DNA of 64,000 nt from Vibrio sp. B1FLJ16 (lineage in GTDB: Bacteria > Pseudomonadota > Gammaproteobacteria > Enterobacterales > Vibrionaceae), in NCBI RefSeq assembly GCF_905175385.1, contig NZ_HG992749.1:62001-126000 (forward strand), read 5' to 3'. A program made the position numbers and the translations under genes. Under the pieces are notes generated by a model. It saw only the letters and a program-made list of their open reading frames with translations. It ran no database searches and was not told the origin of the DNA. Of the stretch, positions 1 to 12,721 are shown piece by piece (the first letter of the stretch is position 1; every line of letters begins with the position of its first letter).

Positions 1-347
1 ATTGCTTCAGTTGAACTAATCATACCTAGTTCTTCTGCGATTTTAATGGACTCTCTTGTAGTAATAATATCGTTGATATCATCATCTTCGGTGACGTCAG
101 CTTTACCTAACATTTCACCTATTAGACTAACACCGACATTCGATAGTTCTGCTTTAAGCGCATTTATCGTGCGAGACCAAAGGTAGTTCATACCCATTTC
201 ATAAAAGCCGTTGTCTAAAGCAAAAGATATCTGATGTTTATCTTTTGTATTTAGCTGTAGAGCACAATCTGCAATTGCAGTAGCTGTAACTGCTGTTTCA
301 GGAATAGTGACGATGTTATCTGGCTGCCAGAGTGTGATATTACTCAT
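1..347 (-). CDS. Unknown protein, N-terminal 115 residues (runs off the window)
   Basis: This reading frame was translated by hand from the ATG at 347 leftward; it stays open to the window edge and begins MSNITLWQPDN. Its start overlaps the stop of the upstream DisA_N-like gene by 8 bases, which implies translational coupling and a shared job. The visible part is soluble and mostly helical, with an acidic stretch (TEDDDIND, about residues 88-95) and the phrase AEELGMIS near the end. I do not recognise the family. The tight coupling is the main clue: it is probably a partner or effector of the protein encoded upstream. Confidence 0.75.
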   Translation of the reverse strand, partial: MSNITLWQPDNIVTIPETAVTATAIADCALQLNTKDKHQISFALDNGFYEMGMNYLWSRTINALKAELSNVGVSLIGEMLGKADVTEDDDINDIITTRESIKIAEELGMISSTEA

Positions 348-1380
348 TATCAGCTCCTTTAAATTGAGTTAAACCATCTTGCGATTGCATATAAGCTCCA
401 CAAAGCTCTGTATCAAGTTTTGAACACAGTGCTTCAAATGCGCGACTTCGTGCCCCTCCAAAAGAATTTGTCGAAGAGGATTGAATAAAAAAATTAAAAC
501 CTAGTAGCTGGGCTTTTTGATTGAAGATAACTATACCATCTGTGTTTATCATACTTTCCAGAATATGAGTAAAGCTGATTAGTGTGCCAGCTTCTTTATC
601 TTCATTAATACATAGAGTTACGAGTTTATGGAAGTCTATTACAGGTGACAATTGTATCCCATCGCCATTGAAAGTGGTCGGGGTTTGCTCGGAGGTCGAT
701 ACGGCAATTAAGCATCCATGACTCTTTTTAATTGCTTCTGATAGAGAATCAGACAGTATTCTATGCACGAACTCTTTATTTTCTTGCACTTCATTTGTTA
801 TGCAGTCTATGAGCTTTGATAAGTCGCTTTGTGTTGATGTGTGTTTGTTCGCCGCTGGGCTTAAAGATATGTATAAAGTAGGGCCTTTGTTCGATCTTAC
901 TTCAACTTGGTCTTGTGTGACTTGGTGGACTTTAATTGTGTTGTAAGGAACATCTGTAGTAAGAACCACTTCATCGATTGAAGTCGTAATGGGATTGGTG
1001 TCACCTCTAAATATACCGTAGCATACTTGTGCATCTTCTTGGGCTATGTAAATACACCAACCATTATTAGCGAGAGGGGCACACTTTTTAAGCGCAGATC
1101 TCATAGCGTTAGATAAGTTAACTTCTGAGCCAATCTGCATCGAATCTGAACCAGGTAACATCTGGAGCGCAAGTGTAATATTGCTGGTGAGATACACTTT
1201 TGGATGAAGCTTAGTGCCTTCTTCTTGATACCTAGAAATATTGAAAACGAGCTCGGTCAGCGCTGTGTTCTGTTCGTCAGCACAGGCGGAAACAAGAGAA
1301 TCATCGCAGAAGGTCTTCGTACTATCTAATAGTTTTGAGTGCAGGTTAATATGGGTCATTTTCGCAGTATATCCGTTCAT
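340..1380 (-). CDS. Protein with a degenerate DisA_N (diadenylate-cyclase-like) domain, possible nucleotide sensor
   Basis: The protein has 346 residues. Residues about 205-342 follow the DisA_N pattern: a strand-like HGCLIAVS at 221-228, then TDGIVIF (D281-G282, where active enzymes have DGA), then GGARSRAF at 308-315 (active enzymes have a G-x-RHR-x-A motif), and a terminal strand near 327-341. The RHR triad reads R-S-R and DGA reads DGI, so catalysis is doubtful and a binding or sensing role fits better. Related DisA_N-like domains have been proposed as sensors in bacterial conflict systems. The N-terminal 200 residues have no motif that I recognise. The gene overlaps the next leftward gene by 8 bases. 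A second in-frame ATG at residue 8 is an alternative start. The family call rests on motif reading only. Confidence 0.6.
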   Translation of the reverse strand: MNGYTAKMTHINLHSKLLDSTKTFCDDSLVSACADEQNTALTELVFNISRYQEEGTKLHPKVYLTSNITLALQMLPGSDSMQIGSEVNLSNAMRSALKKCAPLANNGWCIYIAQEDAQVCYGIFRGDTNPITTSIDEVVLTTDVPYNTIKVHQVTQDQVEVRSNKGPTLYISLSPAANKHTSTQSDLSKLIDCITNEVQENKEFVHRILSDSLSEAIKKSHGCLIAVSTSEQTPTTFNGDGIQLSPVIDFHKLVTLCINEDKEAGTLISFTHILESMINTDGIVIFNQKAQLLGFNFFIQSSSTNSFGGARSRAFEALCSKLDTELCGAYMQSQDGLTQFKGADNE

Positions 1381-1446
1381 ATGCGCAGAGAATGATATAT
1401 CACAACCTCTTAGTTTTAATAGTACTTAGCTCAAGCAATAGTAAAA

Positions 1447-1764
1447 CTAGCTATCAACATCTAGCTGTGAGATGTAGTTGAGAAGTACTTCTTTTTGTGA
1501 AGGAGTTAGTCGACTTATGGCAATAGCTAGGTGCGCAGATAACTTATCCTCACAGAAAAAGTAACTTAACGGTACATCAAGCTCATCCGCAATCAGTTTC
1601 AGCGTTTGAACATCAGGCGAATGTTTCCCTTTTTCGTACTGATTCATCCTTGGGCTTGCCGAGCTTTCATCCATACCTATTTTTACTCCCAAGGCCTTCT
1701 GAGAGAGTTTTGCTTTTTTACGCGCTTCTTTGAGGCGCAGTGGAATTGGGTTTTGGAATGACAC
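1447..1764 (-). CDS. XRE-family transcriptional regulator
   Basis: This 105-residue protein has a classic Cro/CI helix-turn-helix at about residues 9-65 (RLKEARKKAKLSQKALG, then NQYEKGKHSP and LKLIADELDVP). A short helical tail probably serves in dimerisation. The start is GTG at 1764. It is transcribed away from the winged-helix/helicase operon. The intergenic region holds two copies of ACTAAG-N5-CTTAGT, which are good candidates for its operators. The likely role is repression of the rightward operon and possibly of itself. The gene also lies directly upstream of, and in the same direction as, the DisA_N-like gene, with a 66-base gap. Confidence 0.9.
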   Translation of the reverse strand: MSFQNPIPLRLKEARKKAKLSQKALGVKIGMDESSASPRMNQYEKGKHSPDVQTLKLIADELDVPLSYFFCEDKLSAHLAIAISRLTPSQKEVLLNYISQLDVDS

Positions 1765-1794
1765 TTATGGTTCATATCTTAAAGCTCAACGGTA

Positions 1795-1811
1795 ACTAAG
1801 ATTTTCTTAGT
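1795..1811. promoter_or_regulatory. Candidate XRE operator 1 (ACTAAG-N5-CTTAGT)
   Basis: This is a perfect inverted repeat, ACTAAG-ATTTT-CTTAGT. The half-sites and spacer length are identical to those of the second site, whose centre is 34 bases away. It covers the expected -35 position of the rightward promoter. That the XRE protein next door binds here is inference. Confidence 0.7.
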
Positions 1812-1828
1812 TTTACTGATTTCTGTAT

Positions 1829-1845
1829 ACTAAGCAATCCTTAGT
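1829..1845. promoter_or_regulatory. Candidate XRE operator 2, overlapping a -10 element
   Basis: ACTAAG-CAATC-CTTAGT is the second perfect copy of the operator. It overlaps TATACT at 1826-1831, a strong -10 element for the rightward operon that starts at 1869. A weak -35 lies at about 1803-1808 with a 17-base spacer. Binding here would block RNA polymerase. Confidence 0.7.
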
Positions 1846-1868
1846 TTTTCTGGTGGTGTTAGCAATAC

Positions 1869-2393
1869 ATGAAACGTTCTATGAAGATCAGTACAGATAT
1901 GTATAACTTGTTGATTGAAAGAACAATGGATGGTTTTTCAGTAATTGAATTAAGGGATGAGTTTATTGTTCTAAAAGGCTCTCCTGTTGATCCTGATGAA
2001 GCGCGCAAAAAGGTTTATCGACAAATCTTACGGTTTATAAAGAAAGGCTGGCTTAGAAGTGAAGGGAGCGGTCGTCAAAAAAGATACTTTCAGACAGACA
2101 CCTTTAAATCTCTTAATGTGGAGCCAAAATCAGGAAATGTAGATATTGATATTTATTCGAGCCGTGACTACTCGGTGTTAGTGAGTGAGTGCAATCAATA
2201 CAAAGGAGAGCTAGAAATTGTTTTAGGTGAGATTGATGAATACCAGTCCCTTAAAGTTCGATTTCCTGAATTGGAACCGAAATTAACCATGCTTCTTGAT
2301 GAAGCAAAAGAACGCTCTGCGTACCTACTGGGAAAGGTTAATGGGTTAACAAATGTTCTGAAAATGCTCTATGAAGGAAAACAAACGTGTTAA
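1869..2393 (+). CDS. Winged-helix and coiled-coil protein, partner of the helicase
   Basis: The protein has 174 residues and I do not recognise its family. Residues about 5-75 look like a winged helix: a helical start, ARKKVYRQILRFIKKGWL, then a short basic wing (GSGRQKRYF). Residues about 100-165 are predicted as a long coiled coil rich in Glu, Lys and Leu. The gene overlaps the helicase start by 7 bases (its TAA ends at 2393, the helicase GTG is at 2387), so the two products are probably made together and may form a complex. Expression is probably controlled by the divergent XRE repressor. A DNA-binding or specificity role for the helicase is a guess. Confidence 0.8.
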   Translation: MKRSMKISTDMYNLLIERTMDGFSVIELRDEFIVLKGSPVDPDEARKKVYRQILRFIKKGWLRSEGSGRQKRYFQTDTFKSLNVEPKSGNVDIDIYSSRDYSVLVSECNQYKGELEIVLGEIDEYQSLKVRFPELEPKLTMLLDEAKERSAYLLGKVNGLTNVLKMLYEGKQTC

Positions 2394-3760
2394 GAGTTTG
2401 GCAAATAGAGTGTTCAGAAAGAACATTAAGAAAATTTAAAGATAATCATCGTCACTTCTTTTGCCAAGCCACACCGGGGGCTGGTAAAACCGTTCTTGCA
2501 GCTACGATTGCTTCAAGACTGTTGCAAGATGATATGGTCGAACTTGTATTGTGTTTTTCGCCGTCTTTAACGGTTTCGGATGGAATAAAAAAAACCTTTT
2601 CGAACACTCTAAATTGCACTTTTAATGGTGGGTTAGGTTCAATTGGGCAGTCGCTAACCTATCAATCCATTCAATTCCTTAATGATGAATTTTGGCAAAC
2701 CCTCCGTTACCGAAGAGTGTTTGTTGTCTTTGACGAGATTCATCACTGCTCGGGCTCAGAGATAGAAAATGCAAATGTTTGGGGTCAACAAGTACTTACA
2801 AAAATTCAGGGACTTGCGACCTATACACTTGCTATGTCGGGAACCCCATGGCGTTCGGATGCTTTACCTATCGTATTGGGTGAGTACAGTGACTCTGAGG
2901 GGCAGCTTCAGGTCGACTATCAATATACGTTGAAGCAAGCTATTGCTGATAAGGTTTGCAGATCTCCAAAGTTGGTCCTAGTAGACAATGAACATTTGTC
3001 GGTAATTTGTGATGAAAAGGTTGAATCATTTTCCTCAATACTAGAGATGATTAAACAGACTAAAACCTCCTATCAGAGTGTCATACATAATCAAGAAGCG
3101 ATGGAGTACTTGCTTGGTCTTGGTTGTAAAAAGCTTGCAGAAATACGCTCTGAATCGCCAAGTGCGGGAGGGTTAGTTGTTGCTTCATCCGTTCAGCATG
3201 CGAAAGTAATTAAGAGAATACTTTCTCATAAATACTCCCAAACAGTCTCAATAGTTACATACCGTCATGAAGAGCCTTTAGTTGAAATAGAACGATATCG
3301 TCAAAGTGATGCTCAGTGGATCGTTAGTGTTGGAATGATTAGCGAAGGTACTGATATTCCTCGTCTTCAAGTTTGTTGCCATATGAGTTCGGTCAAAACT
3401 GAATTGTACTTTAGGCAAGTACTTGGACGCATTCTTAGAGTAAATGGGCTGATAAACCAGCAAGCTTGGCTATTTACTTTTGCAGAGAAAAGCTTGATTG
3501 AATTTGCAGAACGGATAGAACAAGACATTCCTGAATCATGTCTTTTTGCCAAACTTGCCACGCAAGAAGAATCTGAATTTGCTGATAACCGTAGTCTAAT
3601 AAATCAAAATAACTCTTTGTTAGGTGAAGAAGTAGTTAACTCAAATCTTATCTGGGGGAATACAGTTAAAAGCGGCTCCAGTTCAGGTGGCTCGCTTAGT
3701 GCTGTTGATGACCTTCGGCTAGGGGGATTCAAACAGCGCGTCATTTCTGCTTTTTCGTAG
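2387..3760 (+). CDS. DEAH-type superfamily 2 helicase
   Basis: The 457-residue protein has the SF2 helicase motifs in order: Walker A ATPGAGKT at 28-35, motif II DEIH starting at D116, motif III-like SGTPWR, and in the second RecA domain GTDIP followed by the motif VI region QVLGRILR. It carries no obvious nuclease or methylase domain. The start is GTG at 2387 with an AAGGA site about 10 bases upstream, inside the preceding gene. It is larger than a bare helicase core only by a short Ser-rich C-terminal tail. The context (XRE repressor, winged-helix partner, IetAS pair downstream, mobile island) suggests a defence or element-maintenance role, but the function is not known. Confidence 0.9.
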   Translation: MLRVWQIECSERTLRKFKDNHRHFFCQATPGAGKTVLAATIASRLLQDDMVELVLCFSPSLTVSDGIKKTFSNTLNCTFNGGLGSIGQSLTYQSIQFLNDEFWQTLRYRRVFVVFDEIHHCSGSEIENANVWGQQVLTKIQGLATYTLAMSGTPWRSDALPIVLGEYSDSEGQLQVDYQYTLKQAIADKVCRSPKLVLVDNEHLSVICDEKVESFSSILEMIKQTKTSYQSVIHNQEAMEYLLGLGCKKLAEIRSESPSAGGLVVASSVQHAKVIKRILSHKYSQTVSIVTYRHEEPLVEIERYRQSDAQWIVSVGMISEGTDIPRLQVCCHMSSVKTELYFRQVLGRILRVNGLINQQAWLFTFAEKSLIEFAERIEQDIPESCLFAKLATQEESEFADNRSLINQNNSLLGEEVVNSNLIWGNTVKSGSSSGGSLSAVDDLRLGGFKQRVISAFS

Positions 3761-3820
3761 TTCTCATTGGTTACCAGTTCGGGTGGGTTTTTTTTGACTT
3801 CATGGTGGTTAAATTATTAT

Positions 3821-3854
3821 TTTTTGTGGTAAGTATTGGATGTTTTTGTGGTAA
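3821..3854 (+). promoter_or_regulatory. Two 12-bp direct repeats upstream of ietA
   Basis: TTTTTGTGGTAA occurs at 3821-3832 and again at 3843-3854, exactly 22 bases apart (about two helical turns). A third partial copy (TTGTGG) follows at about 3857. Tandem sites on one face of the DNA upstream of a gene are typical of activator or repressor binding. The cognate protein is unknown. Confidence 0.45.
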
Positions 3855-3888
3855 TCTTGTGGTGGTTGGTTTACCATTTTGAAATTGA

Positions 3889-3906
3889 AACCTAAACATG
3901 TAGGTT
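3889..3906. promoter_or_regulatory. Inverted repeat just before the ietA start
   Basis: AACCTA-N6-TAGGTT has perfect 6-base arms and ends 3 bases before the ATG at 3910. It could be an operator or an RNA hairpin that limits ribosome access, since only a poor ribosome-binding site precedes this ATG. IetA itself carries a C-terminal helix-turn-helix and could act here. Confidence 0.4.
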
Positions 3907-3909
3907 AAA

Positions 3910-4983
3910 ATGGAAGATAAATTCATATTAAATTTGATAGATGTTGCCCTTAAGGGAGATAAATCTACAGCTCAAATGATTGTTAGAAAGTTGGCTTCAA
4001 AAGTTCGACTAGATAGCCCATCGCTATATGAGCAGATAAATAAAAAATTGGCTACAGATGCTTTAAGGAGCAGTAACGTTAGGCGGTTACCTCTACCTGT
4101 AGATGCAGATAGCAGACAAAGTTTAATCAAAGTAGAAGAGCCAGTGTCGCTTCTGAAGGAGCCCATTTACTCTAAGGATGTTTCGGAAGCTTTTGAGCAA
4201 GTGCTATTAGAAAGAGAGTATAAAGACGCTCTTTTATCAGAGGGGCTACAGCCAACTAAGTCGATTATATTCCAAGGCCCACCTGGAGTTGGTAAAACTC
4301 TTTCCGCTAGGTGGTTGGCAAATCAGTTGGATCTTCCACTGTTAACTCTAGATTTAGCGACCGTGATGAGTAGCTTTTTAGGAAAAACAGGAAGTAATGT
4401 AAGGGCTGTACTCGAGCATGCTATGTCTTTTCCTTGCGTACTGCTGCTTGATGAGTTTGATGCTATAGCGAAACGTCGAGATGATGATCGTGAGCTAGGT
4501 GAACTTAAAAGGCTGGTTACGGTACTTCTCCAGACTATAGATGAATGGCCTGCAACATCATTACTTATTGCAGCAACAAATCATGGTGAGCTTCTAGATC
4601 CTGCTATATGGAGACGGTTTGATATGGAAATATCATTTACAATGCCTACAAAGGGAATGGTAAATGAGTACTTATCCAATTATTGGTCAGATGTTGCTGA
4701 TAAGAAAGAAGAATATCTCGATAAATTTGAAGGTATGTCATTCAGCAATATTGATCGTGAATTGACGCAGCAAAAGCGAGCTAATGTAATTTCATCACTG
4801 ACGCTTAGGAAGCTAGTTGGAGAAGAGAATGTAAGTTATCACGAAGAGTTGAGCTTGGAAGAGAAGAAAGTAATGGCTGTAAAGCTTCATAAACAAGGAC
4901 TCTCTCAAAGAGCTATCTCAAATAAGCTTGGTATTAGTAGACCAACGGTTAAAAAGTCGATTGAAGACTCTGGGGAAGGGTAA
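3910..4983 (+). CDS. ietA: AAA+ ATPase of an IetAS-type system, with C-terminal helix-turn-helix
   Basis: The protein has 357 residues. A helical N-terminal part is followed by a AAA+ domain: Walker A GPPGVGKT at 123-130, Walker B LLLDEFD with D181-E182, sensor 1 near IAATNH, and an RRFD arginine-finger region. Residues about 318-352 form a helix-turn-helix (KQGLSQRAISNKLGISRP). Only 5 bases separate it from the subtilase gene. A AAA+ ATPase paired with an S8 protease is the layout of IetAS, named as a toxin-antitoxin pair on a Ti plasmid and later reported as an anti-phage system. The ATPase probably controls or feeds the protease. The symbol rests on architecture and pairing; no alignment was run. 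Confidence 0.85.
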   Translation: MEDKFILNLIDVALKGDKSTAQMIVRKLASKVRLDSPSLYEQINKKLATDALRSSNVRRLPLPVDADSRQSLIKVEEPVSLLKEPIYSKDVSEAFEQVLLEREYKDALLSEGLQPTKSIIFQGPPGVGKTLSARWLANQLDLPLLTLDLATVMSSFLGKTGSNVRAVLEHAMSFPCVLLLDEFDAIAKRRDDDRELGELKRLVTVLLQTIDEWPATSLLIAATNHGELLDPAIWRRFDMEISFTMPTKGMVNEYLSNYWSDVADKKEEYLDKFEGMSFSNIDRELTQQKRANVISSLTLRKLVGEENVSYHEELSLEEKKVMAVKLHKQGLSQRAISNKLGISRPTVKKSIEDSGEG

Positions 4984-4988
4984 AAGTA

Positions 4989-7178
4989 ATGAAGAACTTT
5001 ATTATTGGCTATGGTGAATCGCTTACTAACTCTGTGGAAGTAAGGAGCGGTGGGGGTGAAAAGAAGCATCCATACACTTTTTATGAAGCAAGAGATAGAT
5101 TGGTAAAAGACCTGTCTAGTGTTATCGAAGACATAGACTTAAAACCAGAGGCACAATGTGCAAATGGTGAGGTTGTAATAAAGTTCTTACAACACCCTTC
5201 TTACCTTGCCAAGTCCTATTACCCGACAAAGTTATTTAATCGATATGATATTAAGGATGTAGGCTCAAAATCCCAGCGTATAAAACCCGAAAAGTGGGCC
5301 GTTAAAAAACACCCTGAAGAAGGGCTTACATCGTGTATTTTTGTGTCAGGAACTAAATCGAAGTTCGAAGCAATGTTGAACAGTATTCAGCATGACAACT
5401 TACCTGAGACTACAAAAGATATCATTAGATCAATCGAAAATATTAGCTCTATAACTCCTGATGAAAAGATCAAGCATATAGACGAGCAGAGTGATGAACT
5501 CAAGCTAGAGGTAGTGTTGCATGCTTCTGAGCATGATGAATTCGTTAAACGTTCATTTAACGACTATTCAGTCTCCCTAGGGGGAATTGTTGATTGGAAA
5601 AGAGCTAAAACTGTAGGGGGACTGACTTTCTTGCCCGTGACTATTGGCACTGGTACAGAACAGGAATTGGCACAATTTTCTCATCTAAGGGCACTAAGGA
5701 GTATGCCTCAACTCAGGTTTAATCACCCTGATGTGCTGAGAGAGTCCCTAAAAGAAGCCTTTGAACTACCTCAGTTCAAAGCGTTAAACAATGATTTTAA
5801 GGTATGTATATTCGATGGCGGAATAGGTACGGAACATATTCTCCATGATTGGGTGACAGAGTATATTCCATCCGATGTTACTCATGGACACCCAAGCTTG
5901 TTAGCCCATGGCAGTGAAGTATGTTCTGCATTTCTCTTTGGGCCATACATAGATGGAAGTCCCCAAATGGGAGAACCATATTCTAAAGTCGATATTGTTC
6001 GTGTTTTATCAGCTACGGATACAGATCCCGATCTATTCGATGTATTGACTAGAGTAGAAGATGTTTTAAAGAAAAAGGAATATAAATACATAAATTTGAG
6101 TCTAGGGCCAAGACTGGCGATAGATGATGATGATGTGCACGTATGGACCTCGGTTATTGACAGGCTTCTACAAGATGGCCACTGCTTTGCCACTGTTGCC
6201 ATTGGTAATGATGGAGAGCTAGACGGTGAGTTTGCTAGGATACAACCTCCAAGTGACATGGTTAACTGTTTTGCTGTTGGGGCGAGTGACTCTAAAAGTG
6301 ATAAGTGGGAAAGAGCTCCCTACAGCTGTATTGGACCAGGCAGAAGCCCAGGAGTAGTTAAGCCTGATGGTGTCATTTTTGGAGGTTCATACAGTGAACT
6401 TTTCAAAGTTTACTCTCCTTTGACTCATTCAATCATAGGGACATTAGGGACAAGCTATGCTGCCCCTTATGCTTTAAGAGTAGCGGCTGGCATCGATGCG
6501 ATTACAGACTTTGACTTGAATCCGTCTACAGTAAAGGCGCTAATGGTGCATCATGCGAGTCGTGAGGAAAAAGAACAAAATGATGTTGGGTGGGGGTTAT
6601 TGCCAAATTCCCCAGAGTCCATTGTGGAATGCTTGGATGATGAAGCAATTATCGTGTATCAAGGTGAACTGAATAAGTCAGAACATTTGAGAATACCTAT
6701 CCCTATTCCTGATGGGATTGATTGTACTTGGGTTCACCTCAAAGCGACGTTTTGCTTCAACGCAATTACAGATCCAGAGCACCCATTGCATTATACGAGA
6801 AGTGGTCTTGATATTGTGTTTAGAGGAAATGAAAGTAAGAAAAAAAGCGATGAATCTGATCATGCTGATTCTAAAACGTTCTTTTCCGTTGGTAATCTAT
6901 ATGAAACTGAAGAGGAATTAAGGGAAGATGCACACAAATGGGAAACGTGTATTTCTAGATCTCAACGATTCAAAAAAGATACCCTCTTCAACCCGGTGTT
7001 TGACGTTAAGTATCACGCTAGAGAGCAAGGTGGAGATAGCCAAACAGAACTGGAACCACTTAACTACTCACTTGTGATATCTATTAGAGCGCAGGGTGAT
7101 AACAATACTTACAACTTGGTTCTTCAGCAAAACCAGACGTTACAAGCGGTGAAAGTTGCCAACCGAGTTAGAGTATAG
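4989..7178 (+). CDS. ietS: S8 subtilisin-like protease of an IetAS-type system
   Basis: This 729-residue protein has a subtilase domain with a complete catalytic triad: D276 (VCIFDGG), H307 (LLAHGSE) and S489 (GTSYAAP). About 260 residues of N-terminal extension precede the domain and about 190 residues follow it. There is no signal peptide, so it acts in the cytoplasm. The ribosome-binding site GAAGGG lies inside the end of the ATPase gene. The protease is presumably held inactive until the ATPase partner responds to a trigger such as phage infection; the trigger and substrate cannot be read from sequence. It ends 26 bases from the convergent recombinase module. Confidence 0.88.
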   Translation: MKNFIIGYGESLTNSVEVRSGGGEKKHPYTFYEARDRLVKDLSSVIEDIDLKPEAQCANGEVVIKFLQHPSYLAKSYYPTKLFNRYDIKDVGSKSQRIKPEKWAVKKHPEEGLTSCIFVSGTKSKFEAMLNSIQHDNLPETTKDIIRSIENISSITPDEKIKHIDEQSDELKLEVVLHASEHDEFVKRSFNDYSVSLGGIVDWKRAKTVGGLTFLPVTIGTGTEQELAQFSHLRALRSMPQLRFNHPDVLRESLKEAFELPQFKALNNDFKVCIFDGGIGTEHILHDWVTEYIPSDVTHGHPSLLAHGSEVCSAFLFGPYIDGSPQMGEPYSKVDIVRVLSATDTDPDLFDVLTRVEDVLKKKEYKYINLSLGPRLAIDDDDVHVWTSVIDRLLQDGHCFATVAIGNDGELDGEFARIQPPSDMVNCFAVGASDSKSDKWERAPYSCIGPGRSPGVVKPDGVIFGGSYSELFKVYSPLTHSIIGTLGTSYAAPYALRVAAGIDAITDFDLNPSTVKALMVHHASREEKEQNDVGWGLLPNSPESIVECLDDEAIIVYQGELNKSEHLRIPIPIPDGIDCTWVHLKATFCFNAITDPEHPLHYTRSGLDIVFRGNESKKKSDESDHADSKTFFSVGNLYETEEELREDAHKWETCISRSQRFKKDTLFNPVFDVKYHAREQGGDSQTELEPLNYSLVISIRAQGDNNTYNLVLQQNQTLQAVKVANRVRV

Positions 7179-7204
7179 TCTGTAAGTATCGTGAATCTGA
7201 ACTG

Positions 7205-7648
7205 TTATTGGTGGCTTTTAGGTTTAGGATAAGGAAGCATAGATACTCCAGAATCTAACTCAGCAATCTTGTACTGATATTGCTGAATCATTAAGGCGAG
7301 CTGGTTGTGTTGGCTCGCCATATTAGAGAGTTGTTCTTTTAAATCTTCTGTTTGCGTTCGGTATTTTTCTTTCAGGCTTATTTCTTTTTTTAACCGTTCT
7401 CTTAAGCTGGAAATCTTATCTTCATATGCGTTTTGAGCTTTGGCTTTCGGTGAGTTTTGGATAGCTGAGTCTTTTATTTTTTGTACTATATCTTTGTAGT
7501 AATAGGCAGAACCATCACCGAGTCCTGCTTCTTCTTCGACAGCCTTAACGGACATCTTCCTTGCAGGATCTACGCGGTGAGTTTTTCCCGATAAAATTCT
7601 TTCTAGTGCTTGCTCTAGTTCAACCTTCGTAATTTGGGATTTGCTCAT
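7205..7648 (-). CDS. Small coiled-coil recombination accessory protein (Srap/TnpC-like)
   Basis: The protein has 147 residues. Its N-terminal half contains GDGSAYYYKDIVQKI, and the C-terminal half (about 75-130) is a heptad-rich coiled coil. It is the last gene of the four-gene recombinase module and overlaps the upstream recombinase gene by 29 bases. In Tn554 the third gene (tnpC) encodes a small coiled-coil protein that affects transposition orientation and frequency. In strand-biased circularising elements the equivalent position holds srap. I infer the same role from position, size and coiled coil. Confidence 0.7.
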   Translation of the reverse strand: MSKSQITKVELEQALERILSGKTHRVDPARKMSVKAVEEEAGLGDGSAYYYKDIVQKIKDSAIQNSPKAKAQNAYEDKISSLRERLKKEISLKEKYRTQTEDLKEQLSNMASQHNQLALMIQQYQYKIAELDSGVSMLPYPKPKSHQ

Positions 7649-9731
7649 AATTTTCGTTGCCTATCTCAAATCTTGTGAATGGAATCTGAAATTTGTGGAG
7701 AACTTTTTCAGCGGCTCTGATTTGGGTAATAAAATGTGAATACATGGAAGCGGTTAACGAACCGATTGCTTCCATATCAATAACTTGTTTGCATACCCAT
7801 TGATAGCGTTTGTTCCAGTTTTCAGCTTTTTCTTTATCTATGAGTTGATTTTCACAGCTCATACAGTTGGCTGGGGAACTAACCTTATGCATCTGGCATT
7901 CGTAGCCAGCCATACAGTAAGAGTGTAGCGTGCCTACAAGGGTTAATCGACCTGCTTTTACATGCTCATTAATCGCATCCCATGATTTATATTTTTTGTG
8001 AAGAGATATTCGGTTTTTATTGATTGAACCGGCCATGTGACCCATCAGTTGACCTGAATCCCAGCCTTTATACCATTCATGAATTTTTTGTGTCGTAGAC
8101 TCTTGGATTACGTCATTGAGGAATGATTGAAGCTCTGTATCGATCTGTAGTGCTTTTATTTTGCTGGCAAGACCACCTTCTCCATACCATTCTGTTGTGG
8201 GTAGATCTAGGTGTTTGAACTGTTGTTTTATCGCAATATCGTGACAAAGATTATGACGTTTTGAAAATACAGCGAAGGTTCGTCTTAGTTGGTGGGTCGT
8301 CAAGGGCCAGACATTTCCGACTTTTAAACGCTCATCCGCATTATTTGGTTCACGGTTTGGATTGATGACTCTAAACTCATCGAGGTCATCTTCGGTTATT
8401 AAAGCACCCGCTTTCTCGCATATTTTTAAAAAATGAGTACGCATATTATTGTCTTGTCGAATAATGGGCTTTTGCGATTTTCGTCCTTGGCCTAACCATA
8501 AGCAGCTAGAATTATGAACGCTCATTGGATCATCGTCTTCAAGTAATTGTATGCGCATATACCTTGATATTGCTTCTGCTAGTTCAATTGCTTTTTGAGT
8601 AAATTTTGTTGTTACCCATTCCGCCACTTTTCCTCGACCTTGAGAAAATTTATGTTGTTCTGATTGAAGTGTGTAGTATTTTTTACCGTACATTTCTTTT
8701 TCTTTGAAACTATTTGAATGGAGACAAAAAAGCTCTGAACGGCGCATACCGGTTAATGCACCACAGACAATAAAGCATATGGTTTGAATTTCAATGATGG
8801 TTCCTTGAATGCGTAATGCACTTTTGGGGAGTAAGCTTTCTAAGTGGGTATCTTTAATGTGGGCGTCAATAATGCTGCTGTAACTTGCTGGTTGATGTTT
8901 ATTAACTTCAACTCGATATTCATTGGATTCTTCACTTATCCATTGCCATATACCGCTTTGTATTTTGTCGTCTACTCTCCGTTTCCCTTCTTCATAGTTT
9001 TGCCTCATGTCATAGAGTAGTTCATGTATTGCTTCTTTATAGGGATGGTAAGTTTCTACTACATCAAAACAATATCGGTATATTTTTTCCATGAGTCTGG
9101 TCGGAATTGCATAGAACTGATTTTTTCCTTCATAGAGTCTCCCCGTTATTTCCCTACCAAATTTACACTGGGTGCGTCCTTGTGGTATTTCAAATTGTAT
9201 GGGGAGATACCTCGCTGCTTTTTTTACATGCATCAATGCATTGTAAATACCTTCGACTTGCCCAGAACTGTAGTTTTGCCCTTTAAGGTATTCACAAAAT
9301 TCACTAAAAACGATTTCAGATGATAATGAGTTAATAGATTGGAAGCCTTTAGAATCAATAAATTTATAAAGAATGCTTAATTTGGCAAATCTAGCAATTA
9401 ACGTTGAAGGCTTTATGACAGCACCTTTTCTATGATGTCCTGCAATATAAAGCCAGCAAAAGCAAATTAGCTTCATTTCTCTAGCCAAATCATCACTAAC
9501 TATTTTTGAGAAAACAATGCGTTTTTTATAAACGATTCTTGCATCTAAATATGCACGGAAATCCCATTCTTCATCACCAAAATGGCTGTTGGGAGAACCG
9601 TCAAAATTCTTTGTTACTACAACATCATCGAGTTTTTTTAGTTTTCCGTCAGAATAAAGTTGAACAATGTTTTTATATTCAGAAAGGTTCTCTTTGAGGA
9701 TGTTTTTAGGCAGTTCAAACAATGGTGTCAT
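7620..9731 (-). CDS. Large tyrosine recombinase (IntB-like)
   Basis: This 703-residue tyrosine recombinase has the full catalytic set readable: R330 (TGMRRSE), H480-x-x-R483 (HQLRRTF), H507 (FKHLDLP) and nucleophile Y516 (EWYGE). An unusually long C-terminal extension follows, with a cysteine cluster ending in CMSCENQ that is matched in the catalytically poor neighbour protein. The start is ATG at 9731, preceded by AAGGA; 9 bases separate it from the upstream gene. It probably cuts and joins one end of the element together with the other module proteins. Confidence 0.88.
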   Translation of the reverse strand: MTPLFELPKNILKENLSEYKNIVQLYSDGKLKKLDDVVVTKNFDGSPNSHFGDEEWDFRAYLDARIVYKKRIVFSKIVSDDLAREMKLICFCWLYIAGHHRKGAVIKPSTLIARFAKLSILYKFIDSKGFQSINSLSSEIVFSEFCEYLKGQNYSSGQVEGIYNALMHVKKAARYLPIQFEIPQGRTQCKFGREITGRLYEGKNQFYAIPTRLMEKIYRYCFDVVETYHPYKEAIHELLYDMRQNYEEGKRRVDDKIQSGIWQWISEESNEYRVEVNKHQPASYSSIIDAHIKDTHLESLLPKSALRIQGTIIEIQTICFIVCGALTGMRRSELFCLHSNSFKEKEMYGKKYYTLQSEQHKFSQGRGKVAEWVTTKFTQKAIELAEAISRYMRIQLLEDDDPMSVHNSSCLWLGQGRKSQKPIIRQDNNMRTHFLKICEKAGALITEDDLDEFRVINPNREPNNADERLKVGNVWPLTTHQLRRTFAVFSKRHNLCHDIAIKQQFKHLDLPTTEWYGEGGLASKIKALQIDTELQSFLNDVIQESTTQKIHEWYKGWDSGQLMGHMAGSINKNRISLHKKYKSWDAINEHVKAGRLTLVGTLHSYCMAGYECQMHKVSSPANCMSCENQLIDKEKAENWNKRYQWVCKQVIDMEAIGSLTASMYSHFITQIRAAEKVLHKFQIPFTRFEIGNENYEQIPNYEG

Positions 9732-12628: not shown

Positions 12629-12669
12629 ACTAGCCTCCAATGTATTTGATATACATAGAGGCTAGTATG
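12626..12669. repeat. 44-bp palindrome at the element end, overlapping the recombinase start
   Basis: CATACTAGCCTC (12626-12637) is repeated inverted as GAGGCTAGTATG (12658-12669). Within the spacer, ATGTAT (12640-12645) pairs with ATACAT (12651-12656). The left arm contains the start codon and ribosome-binding site of the recombinase gene. It is likely to be a recombinase binding or autoregulatory site; the function is inferred from position. Confidence 0.75.
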
Positions 12670-12721
12670 TTTTCCAGTGTTTACAAATCTACAGGGTGGA
12701 TTTTCCAGACACCGATCTACA
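12670..12721. other. Element-gor junction region with short direct repeats
   Basis: TTTTCCAG occurs at 12670-12677 and 12701-12708. ATCTACA occurs at 12687-12693 and 12715-12721, the last copy straddling the new gor stop codon. Repeats of this kind between an integrase gene and its target are candidates for the attachment core and accessory binding sites. The exact crossover point cannot be fixed without the other end of the element or an empty site. Confidence 0.5.

Follow-up and report, generated by a model that had tools for sequence, protein, structure and literature searches.

What does a protein with the fold of a diadenylate cyclase (DAC) do in a defence-like island, if both of its catalytic motifs are altered and its gene overlaps that of a partner that could not be placed? 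This question is raised by the window analysed here, a stretch of 64,000 nucleotides from Vibrio sp. B1FLJ16 (NZ_HG992749.1, positions 62,001 to 126,000), in which the open reading frame (ORF) 340..1380 on the minus strand, with an ATG start, encodes a protein of 346 amino acids (aa). Second-messenger immunity is based mainly on cGAS/DncV-like nucleotidyltransferases (CD-NTases), TIR proteins, Pycsar cyclases and Cas10-like polymerases. We propose, with slightly better than even confidence, that the DAC-fold gene belongs to a mobile conflict operon, probably antiphage, which resembles the cyclic oligonucleotide-based antiphage signaling systems (CBASS) but has a DAC-fold protein in place of the CD-NTase. 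A preliminary description of the locus had seen in the same protein the non-catalytic, nucleotide-sensing arm of an undescribed conflict system; what it observed is confirmed, and its interpretation is partly supported.

The comparison with DisA_N folds gave a match, and the fold call of the preliminary description thus stands: residues 194-345 have the DisA_N/DAC fold of the family PF02457. The ORF, the motif letters and the overlap of 8 bases with the partner gene (340-347) are likewise as described, and they are not a matter of chance, as the protein has 94 homologues at E ≤ 0.001 and 19 columns are invariant in an alignment and profile of 67 sequences of the DAC-fold family (A2). The motif letters read D281-G282-I283 and G308 G309 A310 R311 S312 R313 A314 F315, to which the analysis adds S333-x-D335; the invariant columns include D281, G282, G308, G309, A310, R311 and R313, and S333 and D335 are identical in 67/67 sequences as well. 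The site of the alanine in DGA (position 283) is taken by isoleucine in 65 and by valine in 2 of the 67 sequences, and that of the histidine in RHR (position 312) by K (28), S (15), R (12), T (8) or, in one sequence each, Y, M, Q and H. Instead of the full DGA and RHR motifs the family therefore carries DG[IV] and R-x-R, with H in 1/67. Five divergent homologues outside this alignment (L029, L033, L034, L035, L045) retain DG, GGARxRA and SQDG. The bridge to the canonical enzymes is a DACNV-DAC protein (L064) with DGA and RHR intact, which matches the family with an E value of 3.5e-7 in hhalign and of 4.7e-5 in hmmsearch with the A2 profile, and which has the motifs G-G-x-R-x-R-A and S-Q-D-G in common with it.

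Canonical DAC identity was rejected on the altered motifs and on the curated Pfam cut-off of PF02457 (27 bits), at which the window protein is unmatched; 8/67 members of the alignment match at E ≤ 0.1, all of them below this cut-off with a top score of 23.9 bits. Among the sequences of solved structures the alignment matches only 2fb5 (Bacillus cereus CdaS analogue, E 0.099), plus one chance row. For a DACN-type N-terminal domain, a Pfam match was found neither in the window protein nor among the A2 members, in a comparison largely confined to Pfam. One Hymenobacter genome (L062, L063, L064) holds four PF02457 matches, including a DACNG-DACNH-DAC and a DACNV-DAC protein, with differing residues at the RHR site, and carries a member of the DAC-fold family as well (L020).

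The designation of the protein as degenerate and non-catalytic could not be upheld, since D281, G282, R311, R313 and S333 are the same in 67/67 sequences. The DAC site is altered, with its charged residues held as if under selection, which establishes neither "non-catalytic" nor "catalytic". For DacA of Mycobacterium tuberculosis the accessible part of the report states that replacing RHR by AAA ended ATP binding and activity and that G73A did not (PMC3328451), and for CdaS, likewise in the accessible text, replacing DGA or RHR by AAA each ended the formation of cyclic di-AMP (c-di-AMP; PMC4568413). The RHR mutants in these parts of both reports are replacements of the whole motif, in which the histidine was not changed alone. 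An altered but conserved site would be no less compatible with a re-tuned enzyme than with a dead one.

The coupling to the unplaced partner proved to be as tight as the preliminary description had supposed. The partner gene lies directly downstream on the same strand in 18/20 loci (L002-L021) from the scan with the DAC-fold family as query, the exceptions being two loci of Oligoflexus (L018 and L021). If the window, L028, L029, L033-L035 and L045 are added, the pairing amounts to 25/27, a biased figure, as most of the six added loci were found via the partner, so that 18/20 is the fair one. Re-fetched copies (L022, L023, L026, L027, L038, L053, L077) were dropped, and since L006 and L007 as well as L034 and L035 are near relatives, there are fewer independent cases than loci counted. 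Based on mechanically assigned starts, the paired genes overlap or are ≤3 bp apart in 24/24 measured loci besides the window. Because of the overlapping genes and the pairing, the DAC-fold protein and its partner are probably united in one complex. The Oligoflexus homologues (L018:7815-8963 and L021:7899-8960) adjoin, by eye, a GAF-histidine-kinase-like gene; it is possible that they are a chromosomal, non-mobile branch of the family.

No match to the fold of the partner was obtained at E ≤ 0.001 in PDB or BFVD, the HEAT/ARM rows being generic, and the sequences of solved structures searched with A3 gave nothing meaningful. The partner was considered as HEPN RNase and rejected, as the R-x4-6-H motif was not found, and its match to IteS in the PADLOC/NCBIfam search (E 0.047) is noise; neither database gave a meaningful match for the DAC-fold protein, the partner or the third gene of the operon. 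Ten distant homologues of the partner (L046-L052, L030-L032; E 1e-17 to 1e-31) have no DAC-fold gene in the fetched flanks (0/10). They appear to form an all-helical superfamily that is as yet undescribed and is marked by H-x4-N-F-x2-E ... G-N-x2-G. Two of the ten are located near OLD-family ATPases.

The third gene was not seen in the preliminary description because it is outside the window, on the neighbouring chromosomal stretch L001, where it shares a single base with the partner gene at the end of the latter. The 204-aa product has hydrophobic stretches at 67-85 and 175-193 and is encoded downstream of the pair in the Vibrio locus studied here, L002, L003 and L028. Other loci have a SLATT_5 protein 84 bp off the pair (L004; 5.8e-24), a PLDc_2 protein 107 bp off (L010; 4.6e-8) or a SIR2_2 protein as third gene (L012, 49 bp off; L013, 28 bp; L020, 559 bp), the SIR2_2 matches having E values of 5.9e-8, 2.3e-9 and 2.2e-19 among them. 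The Vibrio third gene and the SLATT_5 protein of L004 are not significantly similar in BLAST (E 0.48). Altogether, a candidate effector is present in 9/25 paired loci, four of the nine being Vibrio relatives. Moreover, a prophage-like contig (L036) carries the sole close partner homologue without a DAC-fold gene: here a caspase domain (1.4e-13) and the partner domain are joined in one protein, next to a SIR2_2 protein (2.9e-10), the two being encoded at L036:4018-7155 and 7194-9278. From this arrangement, the partner domain might serve as a module that couples effectors in general. As the third gene varies among known immune effectors and the partner domain occurs fused to a caspase, the operon is assumed to be an effector-triggering system.

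Its core would be a pair, the DAC-fold protein with its helical partner of 441 aa, which are translated from overlapping genes and probably form one complex. A trigger at infection would be registered by the N-terminal domain, by the partner or by both, and the DAC domain would then make a nucleotide signal via D281, R311, R313 and S333. Nucleotide chemistry is assumed because the DAC site is altered but constrained; the product would be c-di-AMP or, conceivably, a related one, because DGA is changed to DG[IV] and RHR to R-x-R. The signal would then act by way of the partner and turn on an effector whose slot is exchangeable; to this slot we assign in Vibrio the predicted membrane protein, in relatives SLATT_5, PLD and SIR2 proteins, and in the prophage-like contig the caspase-partner fusion. 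The adjacent XRE regulator probably keeps the operon quiet.

Table 1. Genes of the Vibrio sp. B1FLJ16 locus; positions refer to the window unless L001 is given.
Feature	Position	Strand	Remarks
DAC-fold protein	340..1380	-	346 aa; N-terminal domain ~11-185 without assigned fold, diadenylate-cyclase-type domain ~194-345
Helical partner gene, start	1..347	-	rest left of the window; full gene L001:17022-18347(-), 441 aa
Third gene	L001:16408-17022, outside the window		predicted protein with two transmembrane segments, 204 aa
XRE-type regulator	1447..1764	-	same strand as the DAC-fold gene, 66 bp upstream; HTH_3 3.6e-12; PADLOC "Control_protein" 2.1e-26
174-aa protein without family and superfamily 2 (SF2) helicase	1869..3760	+	divergent from the XRE gene; ResIII 4.1e-14, RadD-like 1.7e-14
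IetA and IetS homologues	3910..7178	+	PADLOC 1e-88 (IetA), 1.8e-48 (IetS)
Mobility genes: intA 404 aa, tfp 562 aa, intB 703 aa, srap-like 147 aa	7205..12640	-	order and sizes of the SE core

The XRE, helicase, IetA and IetS genes named in the preliminary description were all recovered by HTH_3, ResIII/RadD-like and PADLOC matches (Table 1). The XRE regulator accompanies the DAC-fold operon in the window, in L003 and on a plasmid of Vibrio sp. dhg, is absent from L002, and is likely the controller of the operon. The module of the 174-aa protein and the RadD-like helicase is kept in L003, left as a helicase remnant in L002 and split on the dhg plasmid; it is possibly a defence module of its own. 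IetA and IetS together qualify as IetAS by PADLOC, with scores below the equivalog cut-offs of NCBIfam (256.9 vs 510 bits and 105.1 vs 900 bits, respectively). IetAS is probably not part of the DAC-fold system. As a partner system it was rejected, since among the loci examined it adjoins the pair only in Vibrio (window, L002, dhg plasmid), and in L003 its position is held by a CBASS cyclase (PADLOC Cyclase 5.3e-118) and a patatin. IetAS is therefore probably a separate defence system and a mere neighbour.

Family searches covered 23 distinct proteins among the 143 listed neighbour ORFs, and 5 of the ten among them that were searched with PADLOC were without match. With the third gene excluded, defence genes are found within ~8 kb in at least 8/25 paired loci. 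Besides the cases mentioned, these are Cas3f in L004, a type IV restriction enzyme in L015, an annotated nucleotidyltransferase (SMODS match under the cut-off) and a patatin in L029, two HsdM-type methylases in L045 and annotated restriction-modification genes on the dhg plasmid. In the prophage-like contig L033, an AimR-like (arbitrium-type) regulator is encoded ~0.7 kb downstream of the pair (L033:9972-11144).

The defence-like mobile setting described before recurs in part of the homologues, which are not found mostly outside mobile islands and without the partner. The dhg plasmid carries the block with 98.7% identity over 4 kb and a DAC-fold protein with 100% identity; its helicase gene is in two pieces, separated by an annotated IS21 helper gene. 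In the window, the intA-tfp-intB-srap genes match the SE-type block in order and sizes, as given in the accessible part of the description of these elements (PMC10214605). A recombinase profile matched the 404-aa protein clearly (3.4e-8) and the 562-aa and 703-aa proteins at 0.0083 and 0.47; catalytic residues were seen by eye in the 404-aa and 703-aa proteins only. An inverted match of 13/15 positions links window 12668-12682 with L001:16368-16382, and the homology to L002, L003 and L028 extends ~100 bp beyond, which places the ends of the element approximately. For comparison, the terminal inverted repeats of SE elements are imperfect and 13-19 bp long. By eye, the mobility block and the defence-type cargo are located between eda-like and gor-like genes, and a gor-like gene is found ~1 kb from an eda-like gene in 1/12 fetched loci of relatives (L068). 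Furthermore, three contigs from a viral-contig collection (L033-L035) carry the DAC-fold/partner pair. Viral contigs searched with A2 gave no match, the prophage-like loci having been found via the partner; one locus found in that way, L037, is truncated by the end of its contig and thus uninformative. A tblastn search of named phage records with the window protein and with two partner proteins was negative, and two partner genes were unmatched at the DNA level in E. coli genomes.

How well does a circuit of the CBASS type, in which the signal enzyme has the DAC fold, account for these data? It is the reading we favour over its rivals, with slightly better than even confidence; the readings overlap in part, and the confidence placed in them need not sum to one. 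Several points weigh against it. The alanine of DGA and the histidine of RHR are altered in the DAC-fold family, the partner is missing beside the DAC-fold gene in both Oligoflexus loci, L036 carries the partner domain without the DAC-fold gene, and the distant partner homologues also occur without it. Moreover, 16/25 paired loci are without a recognised effector, the 204-aa third protein of Vibrio is without a family match, and several loci have ordinary neighbours only, e.g., a FAD oxidase near L006. The neighbourhood counts are descriptive, made with no control set, and are not an enrichment test.

The altered motifs speak for the reading of the preliminary description, according to which a non-catalytic DAC domain acts as a sensor: it would bind ATP or a cyclic nucleotide, made by the host or by a CBASS nearby, and would gate partner and effector. 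DG[IV] and R-x-R in nearly all 67 sequences, of which one keeps H, would suit such a sensor, as would the CBASS-type genes beside the pair in L003 and L029 and the loss of ATP binding and activity with RHR in M. tuberculosis DacA, in the accessible part of that report (PMC3328451). We nevertheless consider it rather unlikely, since an invariant D281 and both invariant arginines seem to exceed what ligand binding alone would need. Furthermore, a canonical DAC is present in 8/14 host genomes tested, absent from 6/14 and was not found in the own genome of this Vibrio, and host c-di-AMP is therefore not generally there to be sensed. Improbable, in our view, is a toxin-antitoxin-like pair, in which the partner would be a harmful protein that the DAC-fold protein modifies or restrains, for example by nucleotidylation. 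We give still less credit to a cargo whose task would be regulatory or metabolic and unrelated to conflict. The solitary Oligoflexus copies beside the kinase-like gene and the loci with ordinary neighbours only would agree with it; against it stand the association with SLATT, SIR2 and caspase genes, the carriage on plasmid, island and prophage-like contigs and the patchy presence, the partner being found in 4/274 genomes of the class (two close) and 7/247 of the family (two close) and the DAC-fold gene in 2/398 of the phylum.

The nearest known relatives of the DAC-fold protein are the diadenylate cyclases of PF02457, the closest among them being DACNV-DAC proteins (PF21751 + PF02457). It shares with PF02457 enzymes the fold of residues 194-345, the D and G of DGA and both R of RHR, whereas it differs from them and from DACNV-DAC proteins in the changed A and H, the score below the Pfam cut-off, the lack of a DACN-type Pfam match and the fixed downstream partner. 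The CBASS-like circuit proposed here has in common with CBASS a signal-type enzyme, a tightly linked second protein and exchangeable effectors of the same kinds (SLATT, SIR2, patatin nearby). Unlike CBASS, the signal enzyme is of another fold and the operon is without CD-NTase: none is encoded among the window genes at 1-7178 or by the third gene, and only in L003 and L029 does a CD-NTase-type gene lie beside the pair. The partner is presumably unlike Cap2/Cap3 or HORMA/TRIP13 of CBASS. The island resembles an SE element by the intA-tfp-intB-srap order and sizes at one end, the Vibrio host and imperfect inverted motifs of the CTGGAAAA type close to either end, and differs from it in its cargo of defence-type genes.

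One published defence role of a DAC was found, within a CBASS-type system: DS-2 from DefensePredictor comprises, in the accessible text, a phospholipase, a cGAS and a DAC, of which the DAC is essential for phage defence, and 15/30 homologues of this DAC are reported next to CBASS (PMC13092281). Similarly, CBASS-type genes are near 2/25 of our paired loci (L003, L029). The likeness is one by description; DS-2 has three genes, and the accessible text mentions no helical partner. Because of this prior work the DAC-fold operon is not a new category. For the DAC-fold/partner pair itself, no published description was found in a literature search that was incomplete, so that an earlier mention is possible.

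A bolder version of the CBASS-like circuit, which we hold only tentatively and at somewhat less than an even chance, is that of a stand-alone immune signalling independent of CD-NTases. The signal of a re-tuned DAC-fold enzyme, possibly a new nucleotide product, would pass through the helical partner, with H-x4-N-F-x2-E ... G-N as its conserved pocket, and activate effectors that can replace one another (membrane protein, SIR2, PLD, caspase). Such a system would mirror CBASS by convergence from another fold, and SE-like elements, plasmids and prophages would have carried it across several phyla. If this is true, c-di-AMP-type chemistry would be an independent branch of bacterial immunity with its own partner, a variable effector slot and no CD-NTase, and the altered motifs would make the identity of the product a directly testable question. 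In this Vibrio and in the 6/14 tested hosts without a canonical DAC, no housekeeping cross-talk would disturb such a signal.
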